Positions 3,425 to 34,081 of a DNA stretch of 46,720 bases are shown here, in pieces. The position numbers and the translations under genes were made by a program. This stretch comes from an uncultured Verrucomicrobiota bacterium (GTDB taxonomy: Bacteria; Verrucomicrobiota; Kiritimatiellia; Kiritimatiellales; Tichowtungiaceae): NCBI GenBank assembly GCA_903826865.1, contig CAIKGD010000077.1, positions 1-46,720 on the forward strand, read 5' to 3'. Positions within the stretch are counted from its first letter, which is position 1. The number at the start of each line of letters is the position of its first letter. The notes under the pieces are model-generated. The model saw only the letters and a program-made list of their open reading frames with translations, did no database searches and was not told the origin of the DNA.

Positions 3425-3446
3425 ACAACAATAAATGGAATCAACT

Positions 3447-10472: not shown

Positions 10473-10532
10473 AAAGCTCCTCAAAATACCCGCACAGAAT
10501 ACGGGCGGATGCAGGATCGGCAAGCCAAAACG

Positions 10533-12227: not shown

Positions 12228-12230
12228 CTG

Positions 12231-13142
12231 TTATTTTTCGACCGAAATTTGCGGGACGAGGGCGGCGATCTGTTCGGGTTTCACCACGCCCGGTTCAATA
12301 TTCATGGCGTTGGATGTTCCGCAGGCCAGCCCGAAAACAAACGCTTCAACCGGCGAATGACCTTTGGTCAGCGCAAAAACGGTTCCGGCGCTGACCGCGT
12401 CGCCGCTTCCGATCGGATTGAGCGCTTTTATCTGCGGAATACTGAAGGTATACGATGAACCGGGAATAAAAAGCATGGCCTGCGCCTTTCCCTGCGTTAT
12501 GCCGACAGCACCTGCACCGAGCGACATCAGTTCCGCGGTCAGCTCGTCAATCGGGGCTTTGCTTTTGAAGGTGCTTCGCAGCTCCTCGGCATTGATCTTC
12601 ACCACGGCCGGACGATGTTCCAAAGCGGCCAGCAGCGGCGCGCCGTAGGTGTCGATCAACACCTTTTTGCCATCGGTCAAAGAAAGCAGTTCGGCGTAAA
12701 TATCCTGCGGCGCATGAGACGGCAGATTGCCTGAAAAAACGATGCGGTCAAAGTCTCCTGCGAGTTCTGTGAAGGTTTTTACAAACGCTTTCCATTCACC
12801 GGCGGAGAGGGGCAGAGAGTTTTCAACCAGTTCTGTGCAGCCGTCGTGGTCATCGGAAAGCAGCGTCTGGCAGATGCGGGTTTCGGCCTTTGTTTCGACC
12901 CAGCGGCAGGGGAGCTGTTCTTTGGCGAGCAGATCGCGGACGGTTTCGCCGGTGCCGCCGCCGGCAAAACTGAGCATGAGCGGGTCGGCGCCGAGTATTT
13001 TTAATACACGGGCGGTATTGGTCGCCTTGCCGCTGGCGGCCACCGACACCTTGCGGGCGCGGTTGACCTCGCCCGGCCGGAATGAGGCATATTCGATTGT
13101 GCGCTGAAGCGCTGGAAAAAATCCACAGCAGAGTATTTTCAT
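12231..13142 (-). CDS. PfkB-family sugar kinase (1-phosphofructokinase/tagatose-6-P kinase-like)
   Basis: 303 residues from ATG 13142 (MKILCCGFFPALQRTIEY). It has the PfkB N-terminal substrate region (GEVNRARKVSVAASGKATNTARVL), a middle VLIDTYGAPLLAAL, and the C-terminal ATP/catalytic signature NPIGSGDAVSAGTVFAL with the catalytic Asp. The arrangement is that of the LacC/FruK branch that phosphorylates sugar phosphates rather than ribokinase. No PTS transporter gene is beside it, so the substrate is open. It is the first gene of a two-gene transcript with the radical-SAM fusion. No clear ribosome site; a CACAAAGG-type repeat lies just upstream (13157-13186). Confidence 0.85.
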   Translation of the reverse strand: MKILCCGFFPALQRTIEYASFRPGEVNRARKVSVAASGKATNTARVLKILGADPLMLSFAGGGTGETVRDLLAKEQLPCRWVETKAETRICQTLLSDDHDGCTELVENSLPLSAGEWKAFVKTFTELAGDFDRIVFSGNLPSHAPQDIYAELLSLTDGKKVLIDTYGAPLLAALEHRPAVVKINAEELRSTFKSKAPIDELTAELMSLGAGAVGITQGKAQAMLFIPGSSYTFSIPQIKALNPIGSGDAVSAGTVFALTKGHSPVEAFVFGLACGTSNAMNIEPGVVKPEQIAALVPQISVEK

Positions 13143-13156
13143 GGAAGGGAAGATAG

Positions 13157-13186
13157 TCACAAAGGCGCAAAGATGCAAAGGCGAAT
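13157..13186. repeat. CACAAAGGCGCAAAG-type short repeat
   Basis: GTCACAAAGGCGCAAAGATGCAAAGG lies in the divergent gap between the PfkB and rluA starts. It belongs to the same loose class as the CACAGAG repeats at 18117-18175 and the coding-region stretch at 34447-34475. No gene or clear promoter is visible in this gap. Confidence 0.5.
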
Positions 13187-13230
13187 AGAATCAAGCTCGG
13201 CATCCGTTGGCTTATCATTTCGTTTCTGCT

Positions 13231-14268
13231 ATGAGTGACTCAATGAAACGGCAGATGGTTTTTGAAATACCCGGCACAGCGGAGGGAACAGCAGCGGCTG
13301 ATTTCCTCGCCGCGCGCTTTCCTTACCATGACCGGACAGGCTGGTGCGCCCGCATCGAAGCCGGAACTGTGACGGTCAATGAGTTGCCGTGTGCGCCTGA
13401 TTTATTGTTAAAAACCGGCGACCGGCTGGCCTATGAACCCGACAACCGTCCGGAACCGCCGGTCGATTTCAATATCGGCATTATTTTGGACGACGAGGAT
13501 CTCCTGCTGGTGAACAAGAGCGGCAATCTTCCGTGCCATCCGGGCGGACGTTATTTCAACCATACGCTGTGGGCGTGGCTCAAAAGGGAGCAGGGGCTGG
13601 CTGATTTCACGTTCGTCAACCGCATTGACCGAGAAACCTCCGGACTGGTCGTCATCGCCAAAAATTTTGCGGCATCTGAAAACTGCCGCAAACAGTTTTC
13701 CGGACGCAAGGTCGTGAAGCGCTACCAAGCGCTGGTGGAGTCCACGGACTTTCCGGCGGAACTGGAGACCGCCGGTTGGCTGGTGGCCGACACCGCATCC
13801 GCCATCCGCAAAAAACGGAAATTTATTCCCGAAGGTAGGGACGCATCGCCGAGGCGTCCGTCAGCCCTGAACGCAACCGAAGAGCGGACCGCTCGGCGAT
13901 CGGTCCCTACCAATCCGCCGTCCGCCGATGCCGAATGGGCTGAAACCAAATTCCGACTGATTAAACAGTGCGGCGACATTGCCTTGATCGAGGCGGAACC
14001 TCATACCGGACGGCTCCACCAAATCCGCGCCACACTGCTGGCGCTGGGAACTCCGATTGTCGGCGATAAACTCTACGGCGTGGACGAAACCCTCTTCCTG
14101 CGCTTTTGCAAAGACACTCTCACGGTTGCAGACCGCGCACGGTTACGAATGGATCGTCAGGCTTTGCACGCTTCCGGACTCAGCTTTCACCATCCGAAGT
14201 TTGGACGGCCCGTCACCGTTGAACTCGATCTGCCAGATGACATGCAACGAAAAATTTTCTCGCTTTGA
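13231..14268 (+). CDS. RluA-family 23S rRNA/tRNA pseudouridine synthase with an in-frame palindromic insert
   Basis: 345 residues from ATG 13231 (another ATG at 13243; TTG 13207 less likely). An S4-like RNA-binding N-terminus (WCARIEAGTVTVNELPC) is followed by NLPCHPGG, the catalytic-Asp motif NRIDRETSGLVV and the late motif EPHTGRLHQIRATLLALG with GDKLYG. It isomerises uridine in RNA; which site (RluA, C or D type) is not clear. A 78-bp palindromic element (13834-13911) is read through as 26 residues at about 202-227, between the catalytic half and the C-terminal half. All key motifs are intact, so the enzyme is probably active despite it. The 3' end is duplicated at 14651-14777. Confidence 0.92.
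   Translation: MSDSMKRQMVFEIPGTAEGTAAADFLAARFPYHDRTGWCARIEAGTVTVNELPCAPDLLLKTGDRLAYEPDNRPEPPVDFNIGIILDDEDLLLVNKSGNLPCHPGGRYFNHTLWAWLKREQGLADFTFVNRIDRETSGLVVIAKNFAASENCRKQFSGRKVVKRYQALVESTDFPAELETAGWLVADTASAIRKKRKFIPEGRDASPRRPSALNATEERTARRSVPTNPPSADAEWAETKFRLIKQCGDIALIEAEPHTGRLHQIRATLLALGTPIVGDKLYGVDETLFLRFCKDTLTVADRARLRMDRQALHASGLSFHHPKFGRPVTVELDLPDDMQRKIFSL
13834..13911. repeat. 78-bp palindromic element inserted in frame in rluA
   Basis: The ends are GGTAGGGAC (13834-13842) and GTCCCTACC (13903-13911), a perfect 9-bp inverted repeat. A second nested pair is ATCGCCGAG and CTCGGCGAT. The length is 26 codons with no stop in the rluA frame. The element could fold into a long hairpin. It has the look of a REP/MITE-like mobile palindrome that landed in a tolerant loop, comparable in principle to the Rickettsia palindromic elements known to sit inside genes. 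Confidence 0.75.
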
Positions 14269-14358
14269 AAAACTCTTTATAATTAATTGTTGGCGTTGAC
14301 CGGCAGGGAGCTGCGGAATAATCTGGCAGGAACAGGCGGTTAGCGAGGGAGAAATTCT

Positions 14359-14643
14359 GTGAAAAGTGAAATAGTTAAAACGTTGCAGAGCCAGTTTGAT
14401 CATTTGGCACAGACCGTTCCAGACGCAGAAGTGGAGTTTTGGTTTGCCCGTGATTTGCAAGAGCCGCTGGGATATGCCCGCTGGGAAAATTTTTTCACGG
14501 CGATCAGTCGAGCTGTAGAGTCTTGTAAAACAACGGGTTGCAATCCTGACTATCATTTTCGTGGCGTCACGAAAATGATCCCGACCGGCAAAGGGGCGGA
14601 ACGTCCGGTTGATGACTTTATGCTGACCCGCTATGCCTGCTAG
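14359..14643 (+). pseudogene. Truncated dinD-like gene (N-terminal third)
   Basis: 94 residues from GTG 14359, preceded by GAGGGAG. It matches the beginning of DNA-damage-inducible protein D, a BRO-N-like family of about 270-290 residues: FWFARDLQEPLGYARWENF, AISRAVESCKTTG, DYHFRGVTKMI and DDFMLTRYAC. It stops exactly at RYAC, where full proteins continue with YL, and the sequence then switches to a copy of the rluA 3' end. This is a broken acquisition or a deletion remnant. DinD binds RecA in E. coli; this fragment is unlikely to keep that role. Reverse reading gives no better gene. Confidence 0.8.
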
Positions 14644-14650
14644 GTGGGGC

Positions 14651-14777
14651 GTCAGGCTTGCGCTCCGGACTCAGCTTTCGCCATTCGAAGTTTGGACGGC
14701 CCGTCACCGTTGATCTCGATCTTCCTGATGATATGCAGCAATTGCTAACAGCATCACAAATTTATGCAACGATCTGA
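14651..14777 (+). pseudogene. Duplicate of the rluA 3' end
   Basis: Starting within CTCCGGACTCAGCTTTCGCC, this stretch matches rluA 14158-14254 at most positions. From base 14664 it encodes SGLSFRHSKFGRPVTVDLDL, nearly the C-terminus of the intact gene (SGLSFHHPKFGRPVTVELDL), and ends with its own tail and stop at 14775-14777. Several differences are silent (GATGAT for GATGAC, CTTCCT for CTGCCA), so the copy is an old paralogue or came from a relative, not a fresh tandem duplication. It flanks the dinD fragment directly. Confidence 0.8.
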
Positions 14778-14787
14778 GAGTAGGCCG

Positions 14788-15378
14788 TCAGTGCAGAATG
14801 ATGTCTTCTAATTTAATTTCATTCAGGATTGTAAACCCTTGGATTCGACCCGTGACAGAAACAGGAGTTCCTTGTCGCATGAATTTAAATGTAGGGAAGT
14901 CGTTAACGTCGACATTGAAACGCACTTTAGTGCCGTAATCTGACTCCAAGCCTAAGGAAACTGTTATTTCCTTATCGTTATGTTTGTGAAGAACCCTAAG
15001 AACTCCAGAGAAGTCGATATATGTCCCGATGTAGTGCTTTTGCACCTCGTCTTGCTGAAATGGAGGTCGACTAGCTATGTCGTTTAAGATGTCATCGACA
15101 GACATGTTCAATGACGACTTGGCTTTGCCGGATAATATAGTGGAGTGATGATTTTTGATCTCGGCTGCGGCGTTACTGCCATTGTTAACGATGATATTGG
15201 TAATATTCCCTGCGTTAATTTTTGTTCCAGTGACTGAGGTTGCTGTTTCGGTAAAATTGGTATTTGTCGTTGTTTGTTTTTTAGGTTTTGTTTTTGAGAA
15301 AAAGGCAAAGAAACCAGCAAGTGCGGTCGCTCCAATGCCGGAAAAAAGCCACTCTTTATTTTCAGCTAACCACTCCAT
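14788..15378 (-). CDS. Membrane-anchored protein with a C-terminal OB-fold-like domain
   Basis: 196 residues from ATG 15378, with AAGGTG upstream. It opens with MEWLAENKEWLFSGIG, a short membrane-anchor start seen in various small accessory proteins, then a Thr/Asn-rich linker (about 35-75). The C-terminal ~100 residues (YIGTYIDFSGVLRVL, TKVRFNVDVNDFPTF, GTPVSVTGRIQGF, NEIKLEDIIL) have the strand pattern of an OB-fold/tRNA_anti-like domain. AT-richer than its neighbours and next to the dinD/rluA scar, so probably acquired. Function unknown; the OB call is by eye. Confidence 0.65.
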   Translation of the reverse strand: MEWLAENKEWLFSGIGATALAGFFAFFSKTKPKKQTTTNTNFTETATSVTGTKINAGNITNIIVNNGSNAAAEIKNHHSTILSGKAKSSLNMSVDDILNDIASRPPFQQDEVQKHYIGTYIDFSGVLRVLHKHNDKEITVSLGLESDYGTKVRFNVDVNDFPTFKFMRQGTPVSVTGRIQGFTILNEIKLEDIILH

Positions 15379-21690: not shown

Positions 21691-22524
21691 ATGAAACAGC
21701 TTTTTCTGCCGGTGTGTCTGCTTGCTCTGCTTCTTACGGGTGGCGGCTGCTGTAATTTCTATCGGCTGGCAGGAAATGGACCCAGACCGCGCGCTGAATG
21801 GGCGGATGCACTGTCCGGTGCGACTGCTAAGCAAATGGATAAAATCCGGGTGGAGGCCGCTACCAGCGATATCACACTGCTTTTCGACCGCGGGGACTAC
21901 GGCGGATACAAAGTTAAACTTCACCGGGAATTTGCCTGGCATGTTCCGGCCGGCCCTTATCATGAACGCTCATTCTGGCTTCCGGACAGCAAACGGGGAG
22001 GACGCAGCATGTGCATGAAGATGGACTGCTGGGGAACAGACCTTCTGCCGTACATGGTTGGTGTATTTGTGGCCGGGAATGCGGCGGTCTATGATTATCC
22101 CCGCGGCGGTTGCATCGCGTATCAGCGCTTCATGCGGGCCGGTCTCATTCCGCTGGTTGTGTACGAGTCCAGTCTGCTGCCGGTCACAAAAGAGTTGCAA
22201 ATTCCCGGCGGGCCGAATGTCATGAACCCCGGCTCGCTCTGCGGATTTTCAAGCTCGCTGGAGGGCCTTAAGCTGGATCGGATGGGCAATTATTATTTCT
22301 GGCCGTCGACTTCGCTGAACCGCCTTAAATACGACCGGTTGACAGCGTATTATTTTCTTTGCGGACTGCTGGCGTTTGGACAAAAAAACGATCGCGCCTA
22401 TCTGCAGATCGCCTGGATACCGATTCCTCTGTGGTCAATGGAAGAAGAGCCGTCGTTCAAAGATATTATTCCGCGTGGTTTGGCGCGCCCAGTGGCAGAA
22501 CGGTTCGGCCGTACACTTCATTGA
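21691..22524 (+). CDS. Predicted lipoprotein of unknown function
   Basis: 277 residues from ATG 21691. The start [21 protein letters not shown] is a signal peptide with a lipobox-like GGGC, so the protein is probably lipid-anchored. The body has no motif I can name; it contains [16 protein letters not shown], several Cys ([15 protein letters not shown]) and a hydrophobic [11 protein letters not shown]. Its 3' end overlaps the convergent acetate-transporter gene by 59 bp, an unusually long tail-to-tail overlap. Real coding is supported by the signal sequence and full-length frame. Confidence 0.7.
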
Positions 22525-23059
22525 GAACCTGCGCGATGCCCGCATAGATGGCGGAGAAACCGCAGATGAGTCCTTCATAACCCGCGATCTGCTTGAGCTG
22601 TGCATTTTCCGTGGCATCGCCGACGGCGAGCAGCGCAAACAGAATAACCAGTGTTCCGAAAACAACCTGCAGGGCTCTGGAGAGTTTCAGCGTTCCGATG
22701 AACATCAGCAGAGTGAAAAAACCCCACAGACCGAGGAAGCTGGCCATCGCCATATTCGAAGCGGGGGCTGCCCAGCCGAGTTTGGGCAGAACAATCAGTG
22801 CGACGAGGGTGAGCCAGAAGAAGCCGTAAGAGATAAAGGCGGTGGTGCCGAAGGTGTTGTTCTTTTTCCATTCCATGATGCCGGTGATGACCTGTGCCGT
22901 TCCGCCGTAAAAAATGCCCATGGCGAGAATCATGGAATTGAGTTCATAGAGCCCGGCGTTATGAAGATTCAGCAGAACGGTGGTCATGCCGAAGGCCAGC
23001 AGGCCGAGCGGAGCGGGATTGGCGGTGGTGTCTTTGACGGTCATGGAATCGGTGCACAT
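22466..23059 (-). CDS. satP: Acetate/succinate uptake transporter, GPR1/FUN34/YaaH (SatP) family
   Basis: 197 residues from ATG 23059, with AAAGAGA upstream. The family signature [18 protein letters not shown] opens the first membrane segment, and [20 protein letters not shown] is the conserved second region. Six membrane segments, as in E. coli SatP. The family moves acetate and succinate with protons. In a fermenter it could take up or release acetate. A perfect 11-bp inverted repeat lies in its leader at 23074-23119. The 3' end overlaps the lipoprotein gene. Confidence 0.95.
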
Positions 23060-23073
23060 GGAAGAATCTCTTT

Positions 23074-23119
23074 CTGTATTAAATTTACGGTTCAAAAAAA
23101 ACGCAGTGATTTAATACAG
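23074..23119. promoter_or_regulatory. Perfect 11-bp-arm inverted repeat in the satP leader
   Basis: CTGTATTAAAT (23074-23084) and ATTTAATACAG (23109-23119) are exact inverted copies separated by 24 bases that include an A8 tract. It is 15 bases upstream of the satP start codon. It could be a protein-binding site or a stem in the mRNA leader. The arm itself contains a TATTAA word that could be a -10 box. Confidence 0.5.
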
Positions 23120-23167
23120 CTTTGCTTCGGATTGACACCACTTTTTGAAAATTTGTTGAAACGGAAA

Positions 23168-24001
23168 CTATTCCGCCGGTTTCCCGAGCGGAAGATCGCG
23201 CGAGGGCTCATCGCCGACCCCTGTTTCCTTTAACCGGTCGGGATGAATTTCAACCAGTGCATAGGCATTGCGGGAAGAAGCCTCGACCATTCCGCGGACG
23301 GTCACCTGATGGATGCCGTTTGCAAAAAAGTATCCGCCGCTGTGGACGTGTCCCGAAAACCAGACTGCAACACAGCCTGTTTCCACTGCCGTGCGGATCA
23401 CCTCTTCGGCATCTTTTAATAGCGGCTTGTTCGGCGCGAAATGGCAGAAACAGATCACTTTTTCCCGGTTTGCTGCGGCCTGTCTGAGCAGGGAGCAAAG
23501 CCAGTTGATTTGATCGTTTCCAAGTACGCCGTAGCCGGCGTGCATTCCGTCGAGCACGACGAAACGCCAGCCTCCGGCGCCGGGGACGGTAAAATCATAA
23601 TAGGATTTCTTCAGGCCGTATTTCTGCAGGAGAGCGTCTCTGTCCGCCATGACGCAATGATTGCCGATAACGTGATAATGAGGCATGGCAAGGCGGTTGT
23701 AGATACTCAGAACTTTGTCCAAATCCCGCGCAGATCCGGGAATATCACCCGGGTAGCCGTCAATAAGGTCGCCAAGCTGAATGACAAACGCCGGGTATTT
23801 TTGATTGAGATCGGCAACGCATTCCTCCAGCCGCAGCAGCGAATCACGGTAATGCCGCGCTCCCCGCGGATCTTTGTCGGCATATTGTATGTCCGTTATC
23901 ACCGCAAAGGTGAACAGCCGTTTCTCCGGCGGCGGTTGCGCATTAAGGCCGAAAGCACACAGGAGTGCCAAAGTTACGGCGGCTCGTTTGAACAGGCGCA
24001 T
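23168..24001 (-). CDS. Exported calcineurin-like metallophosphoesterase (ADPRibase-Mn-like)
   Basis: 277 residues. A signal peptide (MRLFKRAAVTLALLCAFGLNA) points to the periplasm. Metal-binding motifs in order: VITDIQYADKDPRGARHYR, QLGDLIDGYPGD, VIGNHCVM, FCHFAPNKPL and FSGHVHSGGYF. The DIQYAD and GHVHSGGY context is that of the Mn-dependent ADP-ribose/CDP-alcohol diphosphatase branch. The usual GNHD/E is GNHC here. It lies just upstream of satP on the same strand and 9 bases downstream of the Ehr small subunit gene, so it may be read through from that operon. Confidence 0.85.
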   Translation of the reverse strand: MRLFKRAAVTLALLCAFGLNAQPPPEKRLFTFAVITDIQYADKDPRGARHYRDSLLRLEECVADLNQKYPAFVIQLGDLIDGYPGDIPGSARDLDKVLSIYNRLAMPHYHVIGNHCVMADRDALLQKYGLKKSYYDFTVPGAGGWRFVVLDGMHAGYGVLGNDQINWLCSLLRQAAANREKVICFCHFAPNKPLLKDAEEVIRTAVETGCVAVWFSGHVHSGGYFFANGIHQVTVRGMVEASSRNAYALVEIHPDRLKETGVGDEPSRDLPLGKPAE

Positions 24002-24010
24002 GATTTTCTC

Positions 24011-24790
24011 CTACAGCCGGGCGGACGGGATGCGTCCGAGCAGACGAAGCAGTCCGTCGAGAATGGTGAGCGGATGCGGCGGGCAGCCGGGGATGTAGAG
24101 ATCGACCGGCAGAAGTGTATCGGCCCCGTTATTGACTTCCGAATGGTTGATAAAAGGTCCGCCGGACAGAGCGCAGGCGCCAACGGCGATGACAATTTTC
24201 GGTTTCGCTACCGCTTCATAGGTGTCGAGCAGAGCCGATTTCATATTCTGTGTAACGGGTCCGGTGATCAAAAGTCCATCGGCGTGACGCGGCGATGCCA
24301 CGAACTGGATGCCGAAACGGCCCAGATCCCAGCCGACGGTGCCAAGCACGTTGACGTCGGCTTCGCACGCATTGCATCCGCCGGCGCTGACCTGCCGCAG
24401 TTTAAGCGAACGGCCCAGCAGTTTTTTCAGTTCGCCGCCCAGCGATTCGGCCAGCTCTAACGCTGCTTCCGGTTTCACGCTGAGGTGCTCATGCTTGCGG
24501 ACGGCAAGCCGGTAGTCGCCGCTGTGACTGATGGCTTCTTGCGGACAGGCCCGTTTGCAGTCGTCGCAGAAAAGGCATTTGCCCAGATCAACCACGGGCT
24601 GTCTGTCCGGCGTAAAGGTGATGGCTTCCACCGGGCACGCTTCCGCACACTGGCGGCAGCCGTTTGTACAGCGCTGCGTATCAATCAGCAGCCGTCCGCG
24701 GAAGCGGTCGGGCATGGCGGGCGGCGGCGCATCCGGGAAACGGATGGTGCGGTACTTCTGATGGATTCGGGCTCTGATGATGTCGATCAT
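24011..24790 (-). CDS. Ferredoxin-fused small subunit (HyfH-HyfI/NuoI-NuoB-like) of an Ehr-type complex
   Basis: 259 residues. The N-terminal ~90 carry two 4Fe-4S sites: C41, C45, C48, C52 and C72, C75, C78, C82. The rest is the HycG/HyfI/NuoB-type small subunit, with the N2-type cluster ligands GGCNACE (C139, C142), GACA (C206) and PGCPPHP (C236). In E. coli these are two proteins (HyfH and HyfI); here they are fused. The electron wire is therefore complete up to the large subunit. AAGGACC precedes ATG 24790. Last gene of the complex; 12 bases after the large subunit. Confidence 0.92.
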   Translation of the reverse strand: MIDIIRARIHQKYRTIRFPDAPPPAMPDRFRGRLLIDTQRCTNGCRQCAEACPVEAITFTPDRQPVVDLGKCLFCDDCKRACPQEAISHSGDYRLAVRKHEHLSVKPEAALELAESLGGELKKLLGRSLKLRQVSAGGCNACEADVNVLGTVGWDLGRFGIQFVASPRHADGLLITGPVTQNMKSALLDTYEAVAKPKIVIAVGACALSGGPFINHSEVNNGADTLLPVDLYIPGCPPHPLTILDGLLRLLGRIPSARL

Positions 24791-24802
24791 GGTTCTGGTC
24801 CT

Positions 24803-26293
24803 TTATAAATCGTGGCCGCAATACGAAAGGTTGAAGCTCTTGTTGCAGAGCGGGAAGTCGGATATCTGCTGATCGCGCATGGCGTATGCGAGTCCCATCC
24901 AGTTGTGGAAGGACGGGTCGACAATTTTATACCGCGTAACGGCACCGGTTTCACCAGTGAGGGCGACGTGGCAAAGTTCGCCGCGCCAGCCTTCGATGAG
25001 CGAGACGGCCAGATGGCGGGGTTTAAGCGGGCCTATTTCGGCCTGAATCGATCCGGCGGGCATCGCCCGGAGCTGCTCGCGGATGAAATCGATGGACTGC
25101 TGAATTTCAAGCCAGCGGACGTAGGCGCGGGCAAACACGTCGCAGGTGTCCCAGGAGGACAGAGGCAGCTGGACAAACCGGTAGATGCCGGAGGGCTGAT
25201 CGTGGCGGACATCGCGCTGTAACCCGGACGCGCGGGCCGCCGGGCCGACTATGCCGAGTGTTTTGCAGATATCCTGCGGCAGAAGACCTTTGCCTTCAAG
25301 CCGGGCCAGCACAGACGGAGTTTCAAACAGCAGTTCGATGGCATTGGCGGCGTCTTTTTCTCCGTCGGAGAGCCGTTCCTGCAGTTCCTCAATCCGTGCG
25401 TCGTCCATGTCATAGCCGGTGCCGCCGGGTATAATCATGCCGCGGCCGAACCGGTTGCCGCACAGCAGGGCGGTCATGTTCAGAAAATCGCCGCGAATGC
25501 GCCCGCAATACGATGCGGTCGGCAGGAAGCCGATATCGTTGGCGATGGCGCCAAGGTCGCCGGTGTGGTTGGCGAGCCGTTCGAGTTCGAGCGCGATGCT
25601 GCGCAAGGCCTGGGCGCGTACCGTTTTTTTGCAGCCGGACAGCGCTTCGACCACCTGACAGTAAGCGGTGGCATGGCCGATGGACGTATCGCCGGCCAGC
25701 GTTTCCGCATAATGCAAGGCGCGTTTGGCCGGTTGCTCCACCATGGCTTTTTCAACGCCGCGATGCTGATAGCCGAGCGCGATTTCCAGATGATAAACGT
25801 GTTCGCCGTGGCACTGGAACCGGAAGTGTCCCGGCTCGATGATGCCGGCGTGGACGGGCCCGACGGAAACCTCGTGAATATCTTCGCCTTCAACGCGGTA
25901 AAAGTCGCCGGTGCCCGGCTGAATGGATGAGCCGGAGTAGCGTACCGGCTTGAGCCACGGATGACCTTCCGGCTTCAGTCCGAACTGTTCGGCGATTTCC
26001 CGTTCGAACAGATGGAGCTGGTTGCAGTCGGGCGTCATGGAGGGGAACTGACCGCCTTCGATACGGGTGGAGAGAATGTTCAGTTCACTGTATTCGTCAT
26101 TGGCCAGCAGGATAAAAAGATCGGTGCAGCCGGGCTGTCCGGATTCCGCGCCGAAAAATGAAACCGCGCGCTGTCCGCCGGTAATCTCGCGCCGCACAAT
26201 GTGCTGAAAGGTTTTTACATCGTGCCGGGGAATCTGATCGAGCGCGACGGACCGGCCGTTGATGGTGGTGAGCATTTCAGGTTGGACGGTCAT
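24803..26293 (-). CDS. Large subunit (HyfG/HycE/NuoCD-like) lacking NiFe ligands
   Basis: 496 residues: a NuoC-like N-terminus (~1-115, LHLFEREIAEQFG) joined to a NuoD/HycE-like part starting EVSVGPVHAGIIEPGHFRFQ, then HLEIALGYQHRGVE. In true group 4 NiFe hydrogenases the first CxxC follows in the helix after this; here residues 200-207 read AGDTSIGH. The second CxxC near the end is replaced by DFPLCNKSFNLSYC (C483, C492, eight residues apart). So no NiFe site can form. The same substitutions are characteristic of Ehr (energy-converting-hydrogenase-related) proteins as I know them. Overlaps hyfF-like by 4 bp. Confidence 0.92.
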   Translation of the reverse strand: MTVQPEMLTTINGRSVALDQIPRHDVKTFQHIVRREITGGQRAVSFFGAESGQPGCTDLFILLANDEYSELNILSTRIEGGQFPSMTPDCNQLHLFEREIAEQFGLKPEGHPWLKPVRYSGSSIQPGTGDFYRVEGEDIHEVSVGPVHAGIIEPGHFRFQCHGEHVYHLEIALGYQHRGVEKAMVEQPAKRALHYAETLAGDTSIGHATAYCQVVEALSGCKKTVRAQALRSIALELERLANHTGDLGAIANDIGFLPTASYCGRIRGDFLNMTALLCGNRFGRGMIIPGGTGYDMDDARIEELQERLSDGEKDAANAIELLFETPSVLARLEGKGLLPQDICKTLGIVGPAARASGLQRDVRHDQPSGIYRFVQLPLSSWDTCDVFARAYVRWLEIQQSIDFIREQLRAMPAGSIQAEIGPLKPRHLAVSLIEGWRGELCHVALTGETGAVTRYKIVDPSFHNWMGLAYAMRDQQISDFPLCNKSFNLSYCGHDL

Positions 26294-27723
26294 GGCTGAG
26301 TCTCCAGAAAATCAACCGCGTTGTGCAGAAGGTTGTTCAGCGGAGCGGGGATGTGCAGGCCCAGCGCCAGAACGAGACCCAGCAGCAGAACCGGCGGAAC
26401 GAGCGTGAGGAATCCTTCCCGGTAGGCGGTGCGCGGCGCGGATTCGGGCACACTGCCCTGAACCACCAGCAGTACGGTCGAACCCATCCCGATGAAGATG
26501 ATCAGCAGAAAGGCCAGAAACAAACCGCTCACGGCAAAGTGTCCGCTTGCGAAGCCGGCGTTCAAAATTGAAAATTCGCTGATAAACGGTCCGAACGGCG
26601 GCGATCCGGTGATAGCCAGAAAGCCGGTCAGGAACAGGGCCGCCGAGACGGGGAGCCGGCGCAGCGCTCCGCGGACGACGTCGGTGCTGGTGCTGCCGAA
26701 TGAGCGGTGAATATTGCCGGCGGACATAAAGAGGATGCCCTTGGTCAGTCCGTTGGTAAACAGATGCAGCAGTGTACCGAAGAGGGCCGGTGCGCCCAGT
26801 CCGAGTCCGAGAATCAGAATGCCCATGTGTTCGACGCTGGAGTAGGCGAGCATGCGTTTGTAATCCTGCTGACCCACCATGAAAATGGCGGCGACGACCA
26901 TGGAAAGCAGTCCCATAAAAAGGAGCATCGGAGACATGAAAGCCGTGTCGCCGGCGGCGGTGCAGACCTGATAGATGCGCAGGATGCAGAGGAACGCGCA
27001 GCTGGTGACGCAACCGGCCAGTATCGTTCCCACCGCTCCGGGCGCTTCGCCATACGCATCCGGTTTCCAGGTGTGCATGGGCGCCAGCCCCATTTTGGTG
27101 CCGTAGCCGATCAGCATCAGTACAAACGCGGCGTGCAGCCACGGCTTGGAAAGCTGCGGCGCGCTGTGCAGGAGCTCTTTTAAAACCAGCGTGGGCTGCA
27201 ATCCGGCGTGGAGCGAGGCGTACGCCAGAAAGAGAGTGCCCAGCAGGGCGAGCGCGATGCCGACGAATCCGATCAGCAGATATTTCCAGGTGGCTTCGAT
27301 GGAGCGCGGCGTTTTGTTGAAATAAATCAAAGGCGCGGTGCACAGCGCTGTGGTTTCAATGGCCACCCACATGATGCCTAAATGTTTCGACCAGGTGATC
27401 ATCGTCATGGTACCCAGCAGGCAGAGCAGGCAGGTGACGAATATGCGGTTCTGCCGCTGCGGATGGTACCGGAGATAGCCCGCGAGATAAAACGAGGTGA
27501 TCAGATAAATAATGCTGATCAGCAGTAGCACCAGCTGACCCGCCGGATCAAGGCCGATCCAGTCGGATGAAATCCGGTTGCCGGCGGAAAAAACAGAAGC
27601 CAGCGTCAGGGCGAAATGGATGATTCCGGCGACCGGTATGATCCACGGCCTCCAGCGGTTGGACGAAATGAGCAGCGCCGCGAGCGCCATGATGAACGGG
27701 AAAACAAGTAAGATAAGTGTCAT
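26290..27723 (-). CDS. HyfF-like antiporter-type membrane subunit
   Basis: 477 residues, about 14 membrane segments, Mrp/NuoN-M-like. Key ion-path residues: Glu in MWVAIETTALCT and Lys in GYGTKMGLAPMHTWKPDAYG, the HyfF form of the usual KxxxxPxHxWLPDA. Then GQQDYKRMLAYSSVEHMGIL. Slightly shorter than E. coli HyfF (526). It is the third antiporter-like subunit of the operon, next to the two HyfB-like proteins. Its stop overlaps the large-subunit start (ATGA), showing tight coupling. Confidence 0.92.
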   Translation of the reverse strand: MTLILLVFPFIMALAALLISSNRWRPWIIPVAGIIHFALTLASVFSAGNRISSDWIGLDPAGQLVLLLISIIYLITSFYLAGYLRYHPQRQNRIFVTCLLCLLGTMTMITWSKHLGIMWVAIETTALCTAPLIYFNKTPRSIEATWKYLLIGFVGIALALLGTLFLAYASLHAGLQPTLVLKELLHSAPQLSKPWLHAAFVLMLIGYGTKMGLAPMHTWKPDAYGEAPGAVGTILAGCVTSCAFLCILRIYQVCTAAGDTAFMSPMLLFMGLLSMVVAAIFMVGQQDYKRMLAYSSVEHMGILILGLGLGAPALFGTLLHLFTNGLTKGILFMSAGNIHRSFGSTSTDVVRGALRRLPVSAALFLTGFLAITGSPPFGPFISEFSILNAGFASGHFAVSGLFLAFLLIIFIGMGSTVLLVVQGSVPESAPRTAYREGFLTLVPPVLLLGLVLALGLHIPAPLNNLLHNAVDFLETQP

Positions 27724-27726
27724 AGC

Positions 27727-28368
27727 CTATTCCTTCAGCGCCGCCAGCCGGCGCGTATCCAATGATGAAAAAGTCTGGTTGATGTGGTTGACCATAATGC
27801 AGATGACGAAAATGGCGACAAACAGGTCCAGCAGCGCGCCGAGTTCCACGACCAGCGGCATGGCGCCCACCAGCAGCATACCGAAGATGTATATGCCGTT
27901 TTCCAGAACCAGATAACCCATGATCTGCGTGATGGCTTTGGCGCGTGTAGTCAGGAGGATGAAGCCGGCGAAGATGGTGGCGAGCGCCGCCGGTACCAGC
28001 AGCGGCGTGGTGTGTTCGCTGGCCAGCGGCAGGGCCGTGGCGAACAGCAGTGCAAATCCGGTGGCCAGCGCTCCCAGCAGCATGGAGGGCAGGAAGCCGA
28101 TCAGCGGTTCCATCTCGCGTTTGATCTGCACATCGCGCATGGCCCGCAGCAGCATGGTCGGGATCACCAGACCTTTCAGCAGAATGGCGGCGGCGGATGC
28201 CGATACGGCCGCGAGGGCGAGATGCTCTTCTATGAGCAGCGGCATAACGCCCAGCAGGAGACCTTGCAGCGACACGACTTTGATGACCGTGATAATCCGG
28301 CTGGTGCCCAGCGCAAACAGATTGAGAGCGAGGACAACGACTAAAAGTGCATTTAACAGGGAGTGCAT
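27727..28368 (-). CDS. HyfE-like (NuoK-type) membrane subunit
   Basis: 213 residues, about 6-7 membrane segments, close to E. coli HyfE (216). Visible features: LLVVVLALNLFALGTSRI at the start, QGLLLGVMPLLIEEHLAL with acidic residues expected in the NuoK-type ion path, and ITQIMGYLVLENGIYIFGM. It links the antiporter modules to the membrane arm. Three bases separate it from hyfF-like, four from hyfC-like. Confidence 0.92.
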   Translation of the reverse strand: MHSLLNALLVVVLALNLFALGTSRIITVIKVVSLQGLLLGVMPLLIEEHLALAAVSASAAAILLKGLVIPTMLLRAMRDVQIKREMEPLIGFLPSMLLGALATGFALLFATALPLASEHTTPLLVPAALATIFAGFILLTTRAKAITQIMGYLVLENGIYIFGMLLVGAMPLVVELGALLDLFVAIFVICIMVNHINQTFSSLDTRRLAALKE

Positions 28369-28372
28369 AAAA

Positions 28373-29281
28373 TTACCTCATGAGTAGAACAAAACCGAAA
28401 CCGCAGAGCAGGATGGCGGCAATTAACAGATGCTGAACATTGCGCATTTGCAGGCGGGCCATCACCGATTCAACGACGCCGACGGCCACGGCCGTAAGCA
28501 GCATCTCCAGCACGAACAGCGACCAGTCCAGCAGAGCCGAGCCGCTTTGAAAGGGGAATACAATGTGCAGCAGCACCGCGCTCAGCACGAACAGCTTTAC
28601 GGCCGCGCCGTACAGGATGATTCCTAACAACGGTCCGCTGTGATCCAGCACCATGACTTCATGAATCATCGTCAGTTCCAGATGCGTATTGGGATCGTCC
28701 ACCGGAATACGGCTGTTTTCCGCCAGCAGCAGAATGAAAAGACCGCCCGCAACCAGCACCAGCGAGGCGGCGGACGCCTGACTTCCGGCCGCCAGCGGCG
28801 CGTGCAGCATATTGGTCAGCACCAGCGATCCGGACATTTTAGCCAGCACCAGCAGCGCAAAAAACAGCGCGGGCTCCGACAGACAGGCGAAGGTGACTTC
28901 GCGGGCGGCGCCCATGCCTTCAAAGGCCGACCCGGTGTCCAGCGCCGCTGTGGTTGTGAAGAAGCGGCTGAGCGCCAGCAGGTAGGCGAAAAGAATCAGG
29001 TCGCCGGTGAAGGCGACTGGGGACTGGAACGGGCCCATCGGCACCATGAGTCCGGCCAGCATGATGGCGGTCAGGGTAATGACGGGTGCGGCGGTGAAAA
29101 CCCAGGTGGTGACCTGACTGATCACAACGCCTTTGCGGGCCAGTTTGATCAGATCGTAATAGAGCTGAAGAACCGGCGGTCCGCGCCGCCCGGCAAACAG
29201 AGCCTTGGTCTTGTTGATTACGCCCAGCAGCAGCGGAGGCATAATCAGCAGCAGCGCGATATGGATGAAAATATTAGTCAT
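28373..29281 (-). CDS. HyfC/HycD-like (NuoH-type) membrane subunit
   Basis: 302 residues, 8 membrane segments, matching the NuoH/HycD family: KTKALFAGRRGPPVLQLYYD near the N terminus, then the acidic loop NSRIPVDDPNTHLELTMIHE that couples redox change to ion movement. That loop is intact, which implies a working conduction path. Four bases separate its stop region from the hyfE-like start. The preceding gene ends 28 bases upstream. Confidence 0.94.
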   Translation of the reverse strand: MTNIFIHIALLLIMPPLLLGVINKTKALFAGRRGPPVLQLYYDLIKLARKGVVISQVTTWVFTAAPVITLTAIMLAGLMVPMGPFQSPVAFTGDLILFAYLLALSRFFTTTAALDTGSAFEGMGAAREVTFACLSEPALFFALLVLAKMSGSLVLTNMLHAPLAAGSQASAASLVLVAGGLFILLLAENSRIPVDDPNTHLELTMIHEVMVLDHSGPLLGIILYGAAVKLFVLSAVLLHIVFPFQSGSALLDWSLFVLEMLLTAVAVGVVESVMARLQMRNVQHLLIAAILLCGFGFVLLMR

Positions 29282-29309
29282 GGTTGGTTTTCCATCAGGT
29301 GCTATGAGT

Positions 29310-31310
29310 TCATCTTCCTATTCCTAAACTTTCCCAGCAAAGTAAAAACAGCAGGATAATCAGAATGTAGAGCAGATAGATGCTGATGCGGCCCTGCTGG
29401 AGCAGGCGCAGTTTCATCATCCGATGTCCGGCGTACCGGACAAACGGCAGAACGATCCGGTCCAGCACGGTGTCAGGAACCGTCGTCGAAAATCCGGACT
29501 TGGATGGAAAAGGTTCCGTGATGACCGGTTGCCGCGTGCGCGGACGAAGCGCCCAGGAAAACCGTTTGACCAGCATTTCGCCGAAGGAGGTAGCTGTGTA
29601 TTGCATACGCGGCGTCGGTTGCGCGTATCCGCAGCTCCAGGTTCCGATGGAAACAGCGGGCTGCCGCCGGATATTTTTCCGGATGATTGTGACGGCGATG
29701 CCGCTGACGACGATCAGCACGAGCGCCGCTCCGCTGATCCATTGAACCGGCGCAAGCGAAACGGGCAGGGGATTTTCCTGCATCGCCGGATCCATCCACT
29801 GCGCGGCGGCCTGCTGAATCAGTGGCAGGCCAACTTGCGGAAGAATGCCCAGCACTACGCAGCCGGCAGCCAGCAGGAACATCGGATAATGCATGAACGG
29901 TTGCGGGTCGTGCGGCGATGCATGGCTGGCGAAGCGCGGCTGTCCCAGAAAAACGGTGCTGTAGATTTTGACGAAGCAGGCGAGGGCCAGTGCGCCGATC
30001 AGCGCCAGTGCTACCGCGCCGATTCCAATGGCAGGCCAGGGCATGCCGTTTCCGGCATTCACACTTTGGAAAAGGCCGAGATAAATCAGCCATTCGCTTA
30101 CAAATCCGTTGAGCGGCGGCAGTCCGCAAATCGCCACGGCTCCGAGGAGGAAAAGTCCGGCGGTGCGCGGCATGAATTTGGCCAGACCGCCCATCCTGTT
30201 CATATCGCGGGTATGAACCGCATGCATGATCGCGCCGGAATTTAAAAAGAGCAGTGATTTGAAAAGGCTGTGGTTCCAGACGTGCAGCAGCGCGCCGCCG
30301 AGTCCCAGCAGAATAAAATCAACCCGGTGCAGTACGCGCCCCATCATCGCCAGTCCGATGCCCATGGTGATGATGCCGATGTTTTCAATGCTGCTGTAGG
30401 CCAGCAGGCGTTTGATATCACTTTGACCGATGGCGAACGCGATGCCGAGTATGCCGGTGACCGCGCCGAGGCCCAGCAGCAGTTCGCCGTTCCACATTTC
30501 GGTCGCCGGCAGCAGGGTCAGCATGCGGAGAATGCCGTAGACGCCCATTTTCAGCATGACGCCCGACATGACCGCGGATACGTGACTGGGCGCGTTGGCG
30601 TGCGCGCCGGGCAGCCAGACATGCAGCGGCATGATGCCCGCTTTGAAGCCGAAGCCGATGACGGTCAGAATAAACAGCGTGGCGGCAATGCCCGCCGTCA
30701 GCGAACCCGCATCGAACGCGTACAGGGTGAAACTTCCGGAGACCTGCCGCAGCAGAGCAAACAGCGCCAGCAGGCAGATGGTTCCGGTGTGCGTCGCCAC
30801 CAGATAAATCCAGCCGGCGAGGCGGACTTCGGGTTTTTCATTTTCAGTGGCGGCCAGAAAGAAAGCGGACAGCGCCATGATTTCCCAGAAAATCAGCAGC
30901 AGCACGGAATCGCGGGCGATCACGACCATGACCATCGCTCCGGCCAGCAGTCCGTAAAACAGACTGAGTCCGCGCCCGTTGTCCAGGTGCTCCGTCTGCC
31001 GCCAGTAACCCAGTCCGTAAACGGAGCCCAGCGCGGGCACGATAAAGACGGGAATCAGAAACACGGCGCTCAAGGCGTCCAGTCCGACCGAAAAACTTCC
31101 CCACGGCAGATGCCACGGCAGCGAGATGGCGCAGAGCCCTGACGAAAACAGCGCAACCGCCAGTCCGCTCAAGCCGGTCAGACTGCCCAGTACCATCAAA
31201 ACAGCGGCCAGCCGCTGGGCCGCCGCGGACTGCCGGGAACCGAAGCCCGCCGGAAAACCGCTGGCCATCATGAGGCCTGCGGCGCTGAGAATCATCCATA
31301 ACCCGTTCAT
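29310..31310 (-). CDS. HyfB-like (NuoL-type) antiporter subunit, copy 2
   Basis: 666 residues, close to E. coli HyfB (672), about 15-16 membrane segments. Ion-path residues: Glu in LIFWEIMALSAFFLAATE, Lys in GFKAGIMPLHVWLPGAH, then PSHVSAVMSGVMLKMGVYG and DIKRLLAYSSIENIGI. The C-terminal part has WSCGYAQPTPRMQYTATSFGEM, a HyfB signature. Clearly paralogous to the next upstream gene. A 26-base gap separates the two. Confidence 0.95.
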   Translation of the reverse strand: MNGLWMILSAAGLMMASGFPAGFGSRQSAAAQRLAAVLMVLGSLTGLSGLAVALFSSGLCAISLPWHLPWGSFSVGLDALSAVFLIPVFIVPALGSVYGLGYWRQTEHLDNGRGLSLFYGLLAGAMVMVVIARDSVLLLIFWEIMALSAFFLAATENEKPEVRLAGWIYLVATHTGTICLLALFALLRQVSGSFTLYAFDAGSLTAGIAATLFILTVIGFGFKAGIMPLHVWLPGAHANAPSHVSAVMSGVMLKMGVYGILRMLTLLPATEMWNGELLLGLGAVTGILGIAFAIGQSDIKRLLAYSSIENIGIITMGIGLAMMGRVLHRVDFILLGLGGALLHVWNHSLFKSLLFLNSGAIMHAVHTRDMNRMGGLAKFMPRTAGLFLLGAVAICGLPPLNGFVSEWLIYLGLFQSVNAGNGMPWPAIGIGAVALALIGALALACFVKIYSTVFLGQPRFASHASPHDPQPFMHYPMFLLAAGCVVLGILPQVGLPLIQQAAAQWMDPAMQENPLPVSLAPVQWISGAALVLIVVSGIAVTIIRKNIRRQPAVSIGTWSCGYAQPTPRMQYTATSFGEMLVKRFSWALRPRTRQPVITEPFPSKSGFSTTVPDTVLDRIVLPFVRYAGHRMMKLRLLQQGRISIYLLYILIILLFLLCWESLGIGR

Positions 31311-31336
31311 TCAAAAACTCCTAAGATCAAAAGCGG

Positions 31337-33367
31337 CTAGCGTGTAAACAGCCGTGTGAAAATGGTCAGTATCGGCAAAGTCCATATCAGCAGAATAATC
31401 ACGGTGAGCGCAACATAGATTAAATACTGATGCGTTAATCCCTGCTGCAAAGGACGGGCCCGGTTGAAAAGCTGTTTGATGAAATGAGCCGCCGGAATAA
31501 GTTTCCGGTCGAGCACCGGTTCATCCTGATGGGTTTCATAGCGTGACGGTTCGGCGAAAACAGAACGGATTTCCGGCTCGTGAATCCGGGGAGAAAGCAC
31601 GGAGCGGAACATGCCGGTCAGCATCTGAGCGAACGATGAAGCCGTATATTGCATACGTTCGGTCGGGCGGGCATATCCGCAGGACCAGGTGATGGTGTGC
31701 GGCGCTTTGCTCCATTGAACCCGGCGGGACAGGCGATAATACACTATGAGACACACACCGATTAACGCCAGCCCGGTCAAGGTAATCGCCGTCAGCGGAG
31801 TCAGCGTGCTCAACGGACAGGACGATTGCAGCAATCCTTCAATATCGCACGACAGGATGGTCCGGCTCAGGACGGGCGCCACGGTCCACGGGAGTACGCC
31901 GATTAAAACGCAGCATCCGGCCAGTACACCCATGGGAATCTGCATGGTAAGCGGAGCTTCATGCGGAACCGATTCCAAAGGCTGCCGTGCCTGGCCCAGA
32001 AAAACCGCGCCGTAAACTTTGACGAAACAGGCCAGCGCCAGCGCGCCGATAAGGGCCAGTACGGGTGCCGCCAGCGCGGCGGCTGTCCACGCCACAGCGG
32101 TTGTGTCGGATGCCGCATGAAACAGACCGAGATAAACAAACCACTCGCTTACAAAACCGTTCAGCGGCGGCAGACCGCAGATCGCCACCGCGCCGATCAG
32201 AAAAAACGCCGCCGTCCGGGGAATAAACTTTGCCAGTCCGCCCATGCGGTCAATCTGCCGCGTTCCGCTGCTGTGAATCGCGGAGCCGGCGCTTAGAAAC
32301 AACAGAACTTTGAACAGCCCGTGGTTCCAGACATGGAGCAGGCAGCCCGCCATTCCGAGGATTACCCACAGCGGACGCCCCAGCGACCGGCCGATCATGG
32401 CCAGTCCGAAGCCCATCAGAATGATGCCGATGTTTTCGATGCTGTGGTACGCCAGCAGGCGTTTGAGATCGTGCTGGCCGATGGCGAACACCACACCGAG
32501 CACGCCGCTGATACAGCCGGAGGCCAGAATGATAACGCCCCAGCTGACCGGCGGATCGGGCAGAAAGCCGATGAAACGGATCAGTCCGTAAATGCCGATT
32601 TTAAGCATTACGCCCGACAGCAGGGCGGAGACGTGGCTCGGCGCATTGGCGTGCGCGGCCGGCAGCCAGAAATGAAACGGCATCATGCCGGCTTTAACGC
32701 CGAAGCCCACAAGCGCCAGAAGAAAAATAATGGTGAGCGTTCCCAGTCCGGCTTCGCTTACGGCGAGAGCCCGCATTTCAAAGGAACCGGTGATCCAGTG
32801 AAAAAAGGCGAACATGGCAAAGAGTGTCAGCGTGCCGATATGCGTAGCCACCAGATAAACCCAGCCGGCGCGGCGTACTTCCGGCAGATGGTGTTCGGTG
32901 CTGACCAGAAAGAAGGCGGGCAGCGCCATGATTTCCCAGCCCATCATAAACAGCACGGCGTGGCGCGCCAGCAGGAGTAAGATCATTCCCGCGATCGCCC
33001 AGCCCCAGAACAGGCGCAGCGAAGGTCCGTTGTCTTCGTGCTTCGATTGCGGCCAGTAGCCGAGTCCGTAAGCCGAACCCAGCGCGCCCATCACCAGCAC
33101 GGGGACAATGAAAAATGCGCTCAGCCCGTCGGCGGCAACTTTCATCGGGTCGCCCATCACATTCCACGGCAGAACCATTGAATCGGTTCCCCGCAGGAAA
33201 ACCAGTGCGACCCCGGCCAGACCGATAGCGGTTGCGGCGCAGGAAAAAACCGTTGCGATCCGTTCGCTCATGGCCGTCCGGCGCGACATTAGCAGTCCGG
33301 GGATTCCGCTCAGCGCATGCAGCGCGGCGGAACTCAGAATCAGCAGGATGGATAGGTGGGATTGCAT
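31337..33367 (-). CDS. HyfB-like (NuoL-type) antiporter subunit, copy 1
   Basis: 676 residues, same layout as copy 2: MGWEIMALPAFFLVSTEHH, GVKAGMMPFHFWLPAAH, PSHVSALLSGVMLKIGIYG, HDLKRLLAYHSIENIGI and WSCGYARPTERMQYTASSFAQM. The two copies are aligned throughout but differ at many positions, so the duplication is old. A complex with two HyfB-type and one HyfF-type antiporters could move more ions per electron pair than one with a single pump. First structural gene after the HTH-EIIA gene (21-base gap). Confidence 0.95.
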   Translation of the reverse strand: MQSHLSILLILSSAALHALSGIPGLLMSRRTAMSERIATVFSCAATAIGLAGVALVFLRGTDSMVLPWNVMGDPMKVAADGLSAFFIVPVLVMGALGSAYGLGYWPQSKHEDNGPSLRLFWGWAIAGMILLLLARHAVLFMMGWEIMALPAFFLVSTEHHLPEVRRAGWVYLVATHIGTLTLFAMFAFFHWITGSFEMRALAVSEAGLGTLTIIFLLALVGFGVKAGMMPFHFWLPAAHANAPSHVSALLSGVMLKIGIYGLIRFIGFLPDPPVSWGVIILASGCISGVLGVVFAIGQHDLKRLLAYHSIENIGIILMGFGLAMIGRSLGRPLWVILGMAGCLLHVWNHGLFKVLLFLSAGSAIHSSGTRQIDRMGGLAKFIPRTAAFFLIGAVAICGLPPLNGFVSEWFVYLGLFHAASDTTAVAWTAAALAAPVLALIGALALACFVKVYGAVFLGQARQPLESVPHEAPLTMQIPMGVLAGCCVLIGVLPWTVAPVLSRTILSCDIEGLLQSSCPLSTLTPLTAITLTGLALIGVCLIVYYRLSRRVQWSKAPHTITWSCGYARPTERMQYTASSFAQMLTGMFRSVLSPRIHEPEIRSVFAEPSRYETHQDEPVLDRKLIPAAHFIKQLFNRARPLQQGLTHQYLIYVALTVIILLIWTLPILTIFTRLFTR

Positions 33368-33388
33368 TTCACTGCACGGACGAAGCGT

Positions 33389-34081
33389 CTATTCCTGTTG
33401 CGGTTTGATTGCAGGAAGCGCGCTTTCCGCCCGTGCCAGTTCTTCCAGAATTTTTTCGCTCGGCTGTTTCTTCTTCAGGGCCTCCTTGAAGGCCGGATTC
33501 TGCAGCACAAAGCCGAGGCGTGACAGCAGTTGCAGATGTGTCCGGACCGTCGGGCTGATCAGCGTGAACAGCGTATCCACCGGTTCCCCGTCAATCGCTC
33601 CGAAATTAACCGGATGTTCCAGAAAGCAGAGCATGATCATCGGTTTGGTAATGTGCAGGACGATTGGATTGCGGACGTGCGGAATGGCGATGCCGTCACC
33701 GATGCCGGTGGAGCCGAGGTTTTCGCGCGCCAGCAGGATCTGATAGAGAAACTCGCGATCCACTTCTTCGGGCAGATGCATTGCATCGACCACATTACGG
33801 AGAACGGTTGGCGTATCGGCACCGCTCAGCCGGTGGACGATTCCTCCTGTTTTGATGATATCCACCAGACTCAGCACCGGTTTGCTGCCGTCGGATTCCG
33901 TCAGGATATCCGCCGAGAGCGGTATCCGCTGGGCGGTGGCCCACTCAATAATCTCTGCACGGCTGAACCGGCACTGCTCGTTGCTGCGATGGACCGGGAT
34001 GCTTTCCTGCTTAATCCAGCGGTAAATTGTTTCCTCAGTGACATTTAACAGTTTCGCGACATCTTTGACCGATAATTGCAT
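33389..34081 (-). CDS. HTH (excisionase/MerR-type) protein fused to a PTS EIIA (PtsN-like) domain
   Basis: 230 residues from ATG 34081, with AAGGAAA upstream. Residues 3-45 form a DNA-binding domain (VKDVAKLLNVTEETIYRWI, then HRSNEQCRFSRAEIIEW). Residues ~68-215 are a fructose/nitrogen-type EIIA with the phosphorylation site His135 in GIAIPHVRNP. No EIIB or EIIC partner is nearby, so the protein is probably a regulator that senses phospho-transfer state, not a sugar transporter part. It is the first gene of the Ehr operon, directly behind the promoter at 34107-34135, and may control it. Confidence 0.9.
   Translation of the reverse strand: MQLSVKDVAKLLNVTEETIYRWIKQESIPVHRSNEQCRFSRAEIIEWATAQRIPLSADILTESDGSKPVLSLVDIIKTGGIVHRLSGADTPTVLRNVVDAMHLPEEVDREFLYQILLARENLGSTGIGDGIAIPHVRNPIVLHITKPMIMLCFLEHPVNFGAIDGEPVDTLFTLISPTVRTHLQLLSRLGFVLQNPAFKEALKKKQPSEKILEELARAESALPAIKPQQE

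Follow-up and report, generated by a model that had tools for sequence, protein, structure and literature searches.

The complex considered here is likened, by published description, to the Ehr complex of Geobacter sulfurreducens (GSU0739-0745: EhrA-1, EhrA-2, B, C, D, L, and S), with which it has in common hydrogenase-4-like membrane subunits, two HyfB-type subunits, a large and a small subunit, and the lack of a NiFe site (PMC7894505, PMC13194489). Other systems share parts of it. With E. coli hydrogenase-4 (Hyf) and formate hydrogenlyase-1 (Hyc) it has its subunit types and proton path in common; with complex I (NuoBCD and the membrane arm), the NuoCD fold, the pump residues, and an Asn at the canopy position. 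The Pyrococcus furiosus sulfane reductase MBS is likewise NiFe-free and ferredoxin-fed, with two large pump subunits (MbsH and MbsH') and no quinone ligands (PMC7684303). The window, by which the whole 46,720-nt stretch analyzed is meant (contig CAIKGD010000077.1 of an uncultured Verrucomicrobiota bacterium, probably one of the Kiritimatiellae), carries at 24011-34081 an operon that encodes a genuine Ehr complex of class I; “class I” and “class II” are labels coined in this analysis. Membership in Ehr was already known: new here are the pocket residues of the large subunit EhrL, their classes, and an associated regulator. As judged from its sequence, the EhrL pocket is not a hydrogenase site and not the usual quinone site either, because the ligands of both are replaced, yet it is equipped for proton-coupled chemistry, the proton path being kept.

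By family profile searches the operon comprises eight genes, all on the minus strand, in the order regulator-HyfB-HyfB-HyfC-HyfE-HyfF-EhrL-EhrS. An earlier note on this DNA, made from its letters alone, had listed seven subunits; all are present where it placed them, but it left the eighth gene in the range, the regulator at 33389-34081, uncounted. The features are:

33389-34081, minus strand: first gene of the operon, a fusion of a helix-turn-helix (HTH) domain with an Ntr-like EIIA domain of the phosphotransferase system (PTS) (Pfam HTH_17, E 1.9e-13; PTS_EIIA_2, E 2e-26)
33677-33679, minus strand: codon of the phospho-acceptor His (in IPH) of the EIIA regulator
31337-33367, minus strand: HyfB copy 2, 676 aa, a NuoL/M-like pump subunit (NF005086, 580.6 bits)
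29310-31310, minus strand: HyfB copy 1, 666 aa (NF005086, 592.9 bits)
28373-29281, minus strand: HyfC, a NuoH-like membrane anchor with conserved acidic residues (PF00146, E 4.5e-31)
27727-28368, minus strand: HyfE-like membrane subunit (NF008556, E 3.8e-21)
26290-27723, minus strand: HyfF, an antiporter-like subunit (NF005044, 330.8 bits)
24803-26293, minus strand: EhrL, 496 aa, a HyfG/HycE-like large subunit (NuoC and NuoD parts) without NiFe ligands
25673-25696, minus strand: A200-G-D-T-S-I-G-H207 of EhrL, in place of the first NiFe CxxC; D202 invariant
24806-24859, minus strand: C-terminal pocket motif of EhrL, DFPLCNKSFNLSYCGHDL (C483, K485, S490, C492, G493)
24011-24790, minus strand: EhrS, a HyfI-like subunit fused to a ferredoxin part with two [4Fe-4S] clusters; C139, C142, C206, and C236 are its proximal-cluster cysteines

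Aligned with HycE, HyfG, Mbh, and the Ech enzyme of the same genome, EhrL has all four NiFe cysteines replaced, by A200, T203, S490, and G493. The residues AGDTSIGH, which the earlier note had read at the first CxxC, do lie there: A200 to H207 fall against HycE C241-G-I-C244. Its second pair, C483 and C492, is eight residues apart as it said, but these two are not NiFe ligands; the NiFe positions themselves are S490 and G493, aligned with HycE C531 and C534. No other cysteines occupy the NiFe positions, the new ones sitting beside them, and with cysteine at none of four ligand positions the note's description of an Ehr-type complex made of hydrogenase parts but lacking a NiFe site is supported. 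Published accounts portray Ehr likewise, without assigning it a function (PMC6349859, PMC10284858, PMC12342949, PMC10432482). The two CxxC motifs of group 4 [NiFe] hydrogenases are thus missing from EhrL. So are the quinone ligands His38 and Tyr87 of complex I (Nqo4), replaced in the alignment by I152 and G201, both invariant among the relatives described below. Retained are the proton-path residues E153, H243, R354, and E396 and the canopy Arg R437 (E193, H284, R395, E437, and R478 in HycE; residue roles from PMC9474812); the canopy Asp529 of HycE is N488. H207 was considered as a likely ligand and rejected, as it varies among divergent class I members.

An AlphaFold2 model of EhrL alone (mean predicted local distance difference test score, pLDDT, 85.8) has HycE (7z0s_E) as its best structural match, full length, with Z 39.0 and a root-mean-square deviation of 2.6 Å over 468 residues; complex I is next, at Z ~34. 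The pocket residues 149-154 and 484-496 score below 50, as would be expected if the small subunit or a ligand were needed to order them.

A contig scan of genomes found 259 relatives, of which 80 were kept (53-77% identity), from the Kiritimatiellota, Verrucomicrobiota, Planctomycetota, Elusimicrobia, Omnitrophota, Riflebacteria, Deltaproteobacteria, and others. Across these and the window (81 sequences), the last 16 residues of EhrL (481-496, PLCNKSFNLSYCGHDL) have a mean conservation of 99%, the highest in the whole protein. Every one of the 81 has D202, C161, C278, and C492, and 80 of them have C483, so that the two C-terminal cysteines singled out by the earlier note are not there by chance; the sequence lacking C483 is a close relative (L003), and one further locus, L099, lacks C278. 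Since its C-terminal stretch is the best-conserved part of EhrL, the former NiFe pocket does not look like a relic: it almost certainly still performs some chemistry, and the class I complex is almost certainly functional.

Further sampling resolved four sets of large subunits, neighbors in the tree and apart from HycE/HyfG. Class I, the window and the 80 loci, has C161, C278, C483, and C492. Class II (L090, L092, L093, L096) has GD[ST].FAH and NKSFN.SYSG, without the pocket cysteines. A third type, with C483 and C489, is found in small complete genomes of the phylum, which we infer to be Methylacidiphilum-like (PMC6688271). The fourth set keeps all four NiFe cysteines (L117 and a second operon at L033; compare the Desulfotomaculum ruminis EhrL with four cysteines noted in 2012, PMC3569383). 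On an adjoining branch, it has NKSF, HAGIIEPGHFRF, and N242 in common with Ehr but lacks D202 and the four class I cysteines; these cysteines are absent from class II and from the NiFe relatives alike. D202, within the old CxxC, occurs in all the NiFe-free sets (L101 excepted) and in none of the NiFe enzymes compared.

Class I operons lie beside or nested with class II or four-Cys operons at L090, L092, L033/L091, and on a Variovorax plasmid (L129/L135), which hints at a joint function. At L033/L091 the four-Cys [NiFe] NKSF large subunit, the nearest hydrogenase relative seen here, is directly downstream of the class I operon. At L090 (G127:C1:3158000-3177000, 13-15107) a class II operon (B-C-E-F-G-I) is nested between the class I hyfF and large-subunit genes; the class I small subunit there lacks the proximal-cluster cysteines, and in its class II counterpart the ferredoxin part is degenerate. 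On plasmid 3 of Variovorax sp. PBL-E5 (L129/L135) the class I operon adjoins another that is Ehr-like. Large plasmids, from Burkholderia, Rhizobium, Variovorax, and others, carry Ehr-like operons whose annotation reads NADH-quinone oxidoreductase or hydrogenase-4; those at L131-L134 have a small subunit without the ferredoxin part. None of 12 other genomes of the window's genus has the large subunit at E <= 1e-60, a patchy presence that points to loss or horizontal gain.

In EhrS none of the eight ferredoxin cysteines is missing, nor any of the four of the proximal cluster (C139, C142, C206, C236), and the full twelve are found in 74 of 92 class I small subunits. The iron-sulfur wire proposed in the earlier note is therefore present in its parts, two ferredoxin clusters and the proximal cysteines, but its last cluster is not N2-type: the spacing is the CxxC of hydrogenases, in 99% of homologues, not the adjacent CC of complex I N2. 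In MBS, a shortened motif leaves the proximal cluster three ligands, and the residue corresponding to MbhL E21, the Glu of the beta1-beta2 loop, is missing (PMC7684303). Ehr has the CxxC and all four ligands, and keeps this Glu as E153; the unique-iron mechanism of MBS is therefore not indicated. Some relatives have lost these ligands in operons that are otherwise intact. The four proximal cysteines are replaced by NEEW at L011 (11552-12346) and SEEW at L090 (14250-15107); the small subunit at L130 (10272-11153) has TDES at these positions; and the class II-type small subunits at L092 (9529-10065) and L093 (1800-2345) have TCDD and no ferredoxin part.

The membrane arm bears out the intact ion path of the earlier note. 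The residues E145, K225, K256, H345, H349, and E408 of HyfB copy 2, E143, K223, K254, H343, H347, and E406 of copy 1, and E123, K210, and E383 of HyfF are all intact; these include the Glu of transmembrane helix 5 (TM5; E145/E143/E123), the Lys of TM7 (K225/K223/K210), and the Glu of TM12 (E408/E406/E383). The acidic residues of HyfC are 98-100% conserved. Taken from the sequences as a whole, the complex has a complex I/Hyf-type membrane arm, whose three antiporter-like subunits are pump-competent, together with a large subunit free of NiFe and a wire of three clusters that is intact.

The two HyfB copies are 47% identical to each other. In the HyfB tree, both copies from the window and from L003-L005 fall in one clade; at L007, L008, L010, L011, L051, and L062 copy 1 groups with the single-HyfB operons and copy 2 lies in the other clade; both L037 copies are in the second clade and both L080 copies in the first. 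By these placements, the doubling arose at least three separate times. Nor is it new: Geobacter has ehrA-1 and ehrA-2 (PMC8691401, PMC13194489), and MBS has MbsH and MbsH' (PMC7684303). The suggestion that the ferredoxin-HyfI fusion and doubled HyfB could serve to place the complex is less well supported, the fusion being near universal in class I and the doubling both recurrent and known from Geobacter (ehrA-2, PMC13194489). Both are differences from E. coli Hyf/Hyc: Ehr has the ferredoxin part fused to HyfI, a second HyfB instead of HyfD, and neither NiFe cysteines nor formate dehydrogenase. From complex I it differs in lacking an NADH module, in its replaced quinone ligands, and in the CxxC of its proximal cluster.

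The electron donor and the quinone question were approached through 383 genomes of the phylum, each at least 90% complete, of which 95 are Ehr-positive (large-subunit match at E <= 1e-100; at least one of these, G047, has class II only). The statistics ignore relatedness. The ferredoxin-dependent 2-oxoacid oxidoreductase family POR_N is found in 95/95 Ehr-positive and 237/288 Ehr-negative genomes (p 2.6e-7), in line with a ferredoxin donor. MqnA/D or MenD is found in 22/95 Ehr-positive genomes, leaving 73 without either menaquinone-ring marker, vs 127/288 of the others (odds ratio 0.38, p 2.6e-4). The window's own genome, 98% complete, has no MenD or MqnA/D. It does encode a MenA-like prenyltransferase (102.9 bits, cut-off 102.15), whose gene is grouped at 3450-6828 of one contig (G000:C33) with those for a polyprenyl synthase, an NADH dehydrogenase-like protein, and a small membrane protein; without the ring markers, such a cluster could possibly serve scavenging of 1,4-dihydroxy-2-naphthoate (DHNA).

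Another contig of the window's genome (G000:C60, 34-18861) encodes an Ech-type [NiFe] large subunit, its two CxxC motifs in place, along with an NADH-dependent [FeFe] hydrogenase of group A6; within this genome the missing NiFe site is thus specific to the Ehr complex.

Considering this evidence together, this class I Ehr complex is no hydrogenase, nor is it likely to be a normal quinone reductase. On balance it is probably a ferredoxin-fed, ion-translocating, proton-coupled reductase whose acceptor is not H+ and generally not quinone either. Its electrons would come from ferredoxin reduced by 2-oxoacid:ferredoxin oxidoreductases; they would pass along the pair of ferredoxin clusters, then the proximal cluster, into the EhrL pocket, where a small acceptor would be reduced with proton uptake; and the energy released would drive H+ or Na+ by way of HyfC, HyfE, HyfF, and the HyfB pair, the extra HyfB increasing the ions moved per electron pair. 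In reverse, the complex might spend the gradient to make reduced ferredoxin. There is a weak preference for a disulfide-type or other thiol-reactive compound as the acceptor, because the cysteine pair adjoins an iron-sulfur cluster. Reduction of sulfur, Fe(III), fumarate, or AQDS (anthraquinone-2,6-disulfonate) was rejected as a role: Pontiella sulfatireligans and P. desulfatans both carry these out (PMC7356697), and G002, taken as P. desulfatans, has no large-subunit match, so that Ehr is dispensable for them.

Several points weigh against this proposal. No acceptor emerged, and no biochemistry was found in the literature for any Ehr; and the association with POR_N partly reflects lifestyle, that of anaerobes. 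The class I complexes of L011 and L090 keep the whole pocket yet lack the proximal-cluster ligands, a poor fit with a simple electron wire into the pocket: there, either electrons take another route to the pocket, perhaps via a center on the new cysteines, or its task is a non-redox one.

The alternative that survives best, though it seems unlikely, is that the acceptor is a quinone after all, Ehr being a complex I-like ferredoxin:(demethyl)menaquinone oxidoreductase that uses the same cavity with different head-group residues. The pocket is homologous to the complex I quinone site, and N242 matches a complex I Asn (N185 of NDUFS2, PMC9474812). The cultured relative P. sulfatireligans F21, whose locus L004 matches survey genome G022 by coordinates, shares the double-HyfB operon and makes MK-9/MK-8 menaquinones (PMC7356697); with P. 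desulfatans, its menaquinone indicates that the MqnA/D marker is sound in their family. In the window's genome, the MenA-like protein adjoining an NADH dehydrogenase-like protein and a polyprenyl synthase, with possible DHNA scavenging, would fit as well. Both head-group ligands, however, are replaced by the invariant I152 and G201; the ring markers are absent from the window's genome and from most Ehr-positive ones, with a negative association overall.

A replacement cofactor is a somewhat more doubtful possibility. In its broader form, a new catalytic center would occupy the old NiFe site in class I, an Asp/Thr pocket with four cysteines binding a replacement Fe-S or metal cofactor, as a third type of head on a complex I-type pump besides hydrogenases and quinone/sulfane reductases, some lineages doing without the proximal cluster; we consider this improbable, and slightly more so the specific case in which C161, C278, C483, and C492 serve as ligands of another metal or a new Fe-S cluster that takes over from the NiFe cofactor or from the proximal cluster. 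The four cysteines are near invariant in class I (80-81 of 81), absent from class II and NiFe relatives, and all still present in L011 and L090 where the proximal ligands are gone; C492 is flanked by the two sites that correspond to the L2 NiFe cysteines. C278 aligns five residues ahead of a complex I His that we take to lie next to N2. One argument against such a center is that C161, on the strand after the loop, may be remote; another is the absence of C483 from the close relative L003 and of C278 from L099.

That Ehr is a redox-free ion transporter, a channel or an Mrp-like antiporter with a vestigial or regulatory peripheral arm, is quite unlikely. It could account for the lost proximal ligands at L011, L090, L092/L093, and L130 and for the small subunits of plasmid-borne relatives without a ferredoxin domain (L131-L134), but the twelve cluster cysteines of the window and of most class I small subunits would hardly have been kept without selection for electron transfer. 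Very improbable is a non-functional hydrogenase relic, as suggested for Geobacter Ehr (PMC13194489): the NiFe ligands are lost, and missense mutations arose in the ehr genes of Geobacter on anodes (PMC13194489), but a relic would lose its pocket first, and here residues 481-496 are the best conserved of the protein across phyla and the pump residues all intact. A working [NiFe] hydrogenase with unusual ligands, for which only homology to HycE and Mbh speaks, is the least probable reading, with no ligand Cys in the window, no maturation protease adjoining the operon, and Asn488 for the canopy Asp529.

A search for conserved neighbor genes around related operons found none except the HTH-EIIA regulator; no conserved formate dehydrogenase, NuoEFG, or hydrogenase protease partner lies beside the operon. 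Other frequent neighbor clusters were rejected as antisense shadows of the regulator gene. Downstream of the operon in the window (22466-24001, minus strand) are a metallophosphoesterase and an acetate uptake transporter, neither of which is conserved beside Ehr elsewhere.

In 46 of the 53 loci where at least 900 bases precede the first hyfB, the HTH-EIIA gene heads the operon, mostly overlapping or abutting hyfB, and all 46 have the phospho-His (IPH). The window's genome encodes a PtsI-like enzyme I (EI) and a GAF-EI protein (PtsP-type, 759 aa), partners that could serve the EIIA domain; a phospho-His together with a GAF-EI (EI-Ntr) in the genome is the combination expected of an EIIA-Ntr regulator. 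Phosphorylated by the PTS-Ntr chain, this switch might couple expression of the complex to phosphoenolpyruvate (PEP) or energy state. No paper linking it to Ehr was found in the open-access text searched.

Ehr is present in roughly a quarter of the sampled genomes of the phylum and in many other phyla; a literature search found no reaction for it, and one recent paper calls it non-functional (PMC13194489). With a conserved pocket, named defining residues, and a conserved regulator, the question of its acceptor becomes directly testable. If the class I cysteines do hold a new cofactor, the complex I superfamily would gain a new catalytic head.

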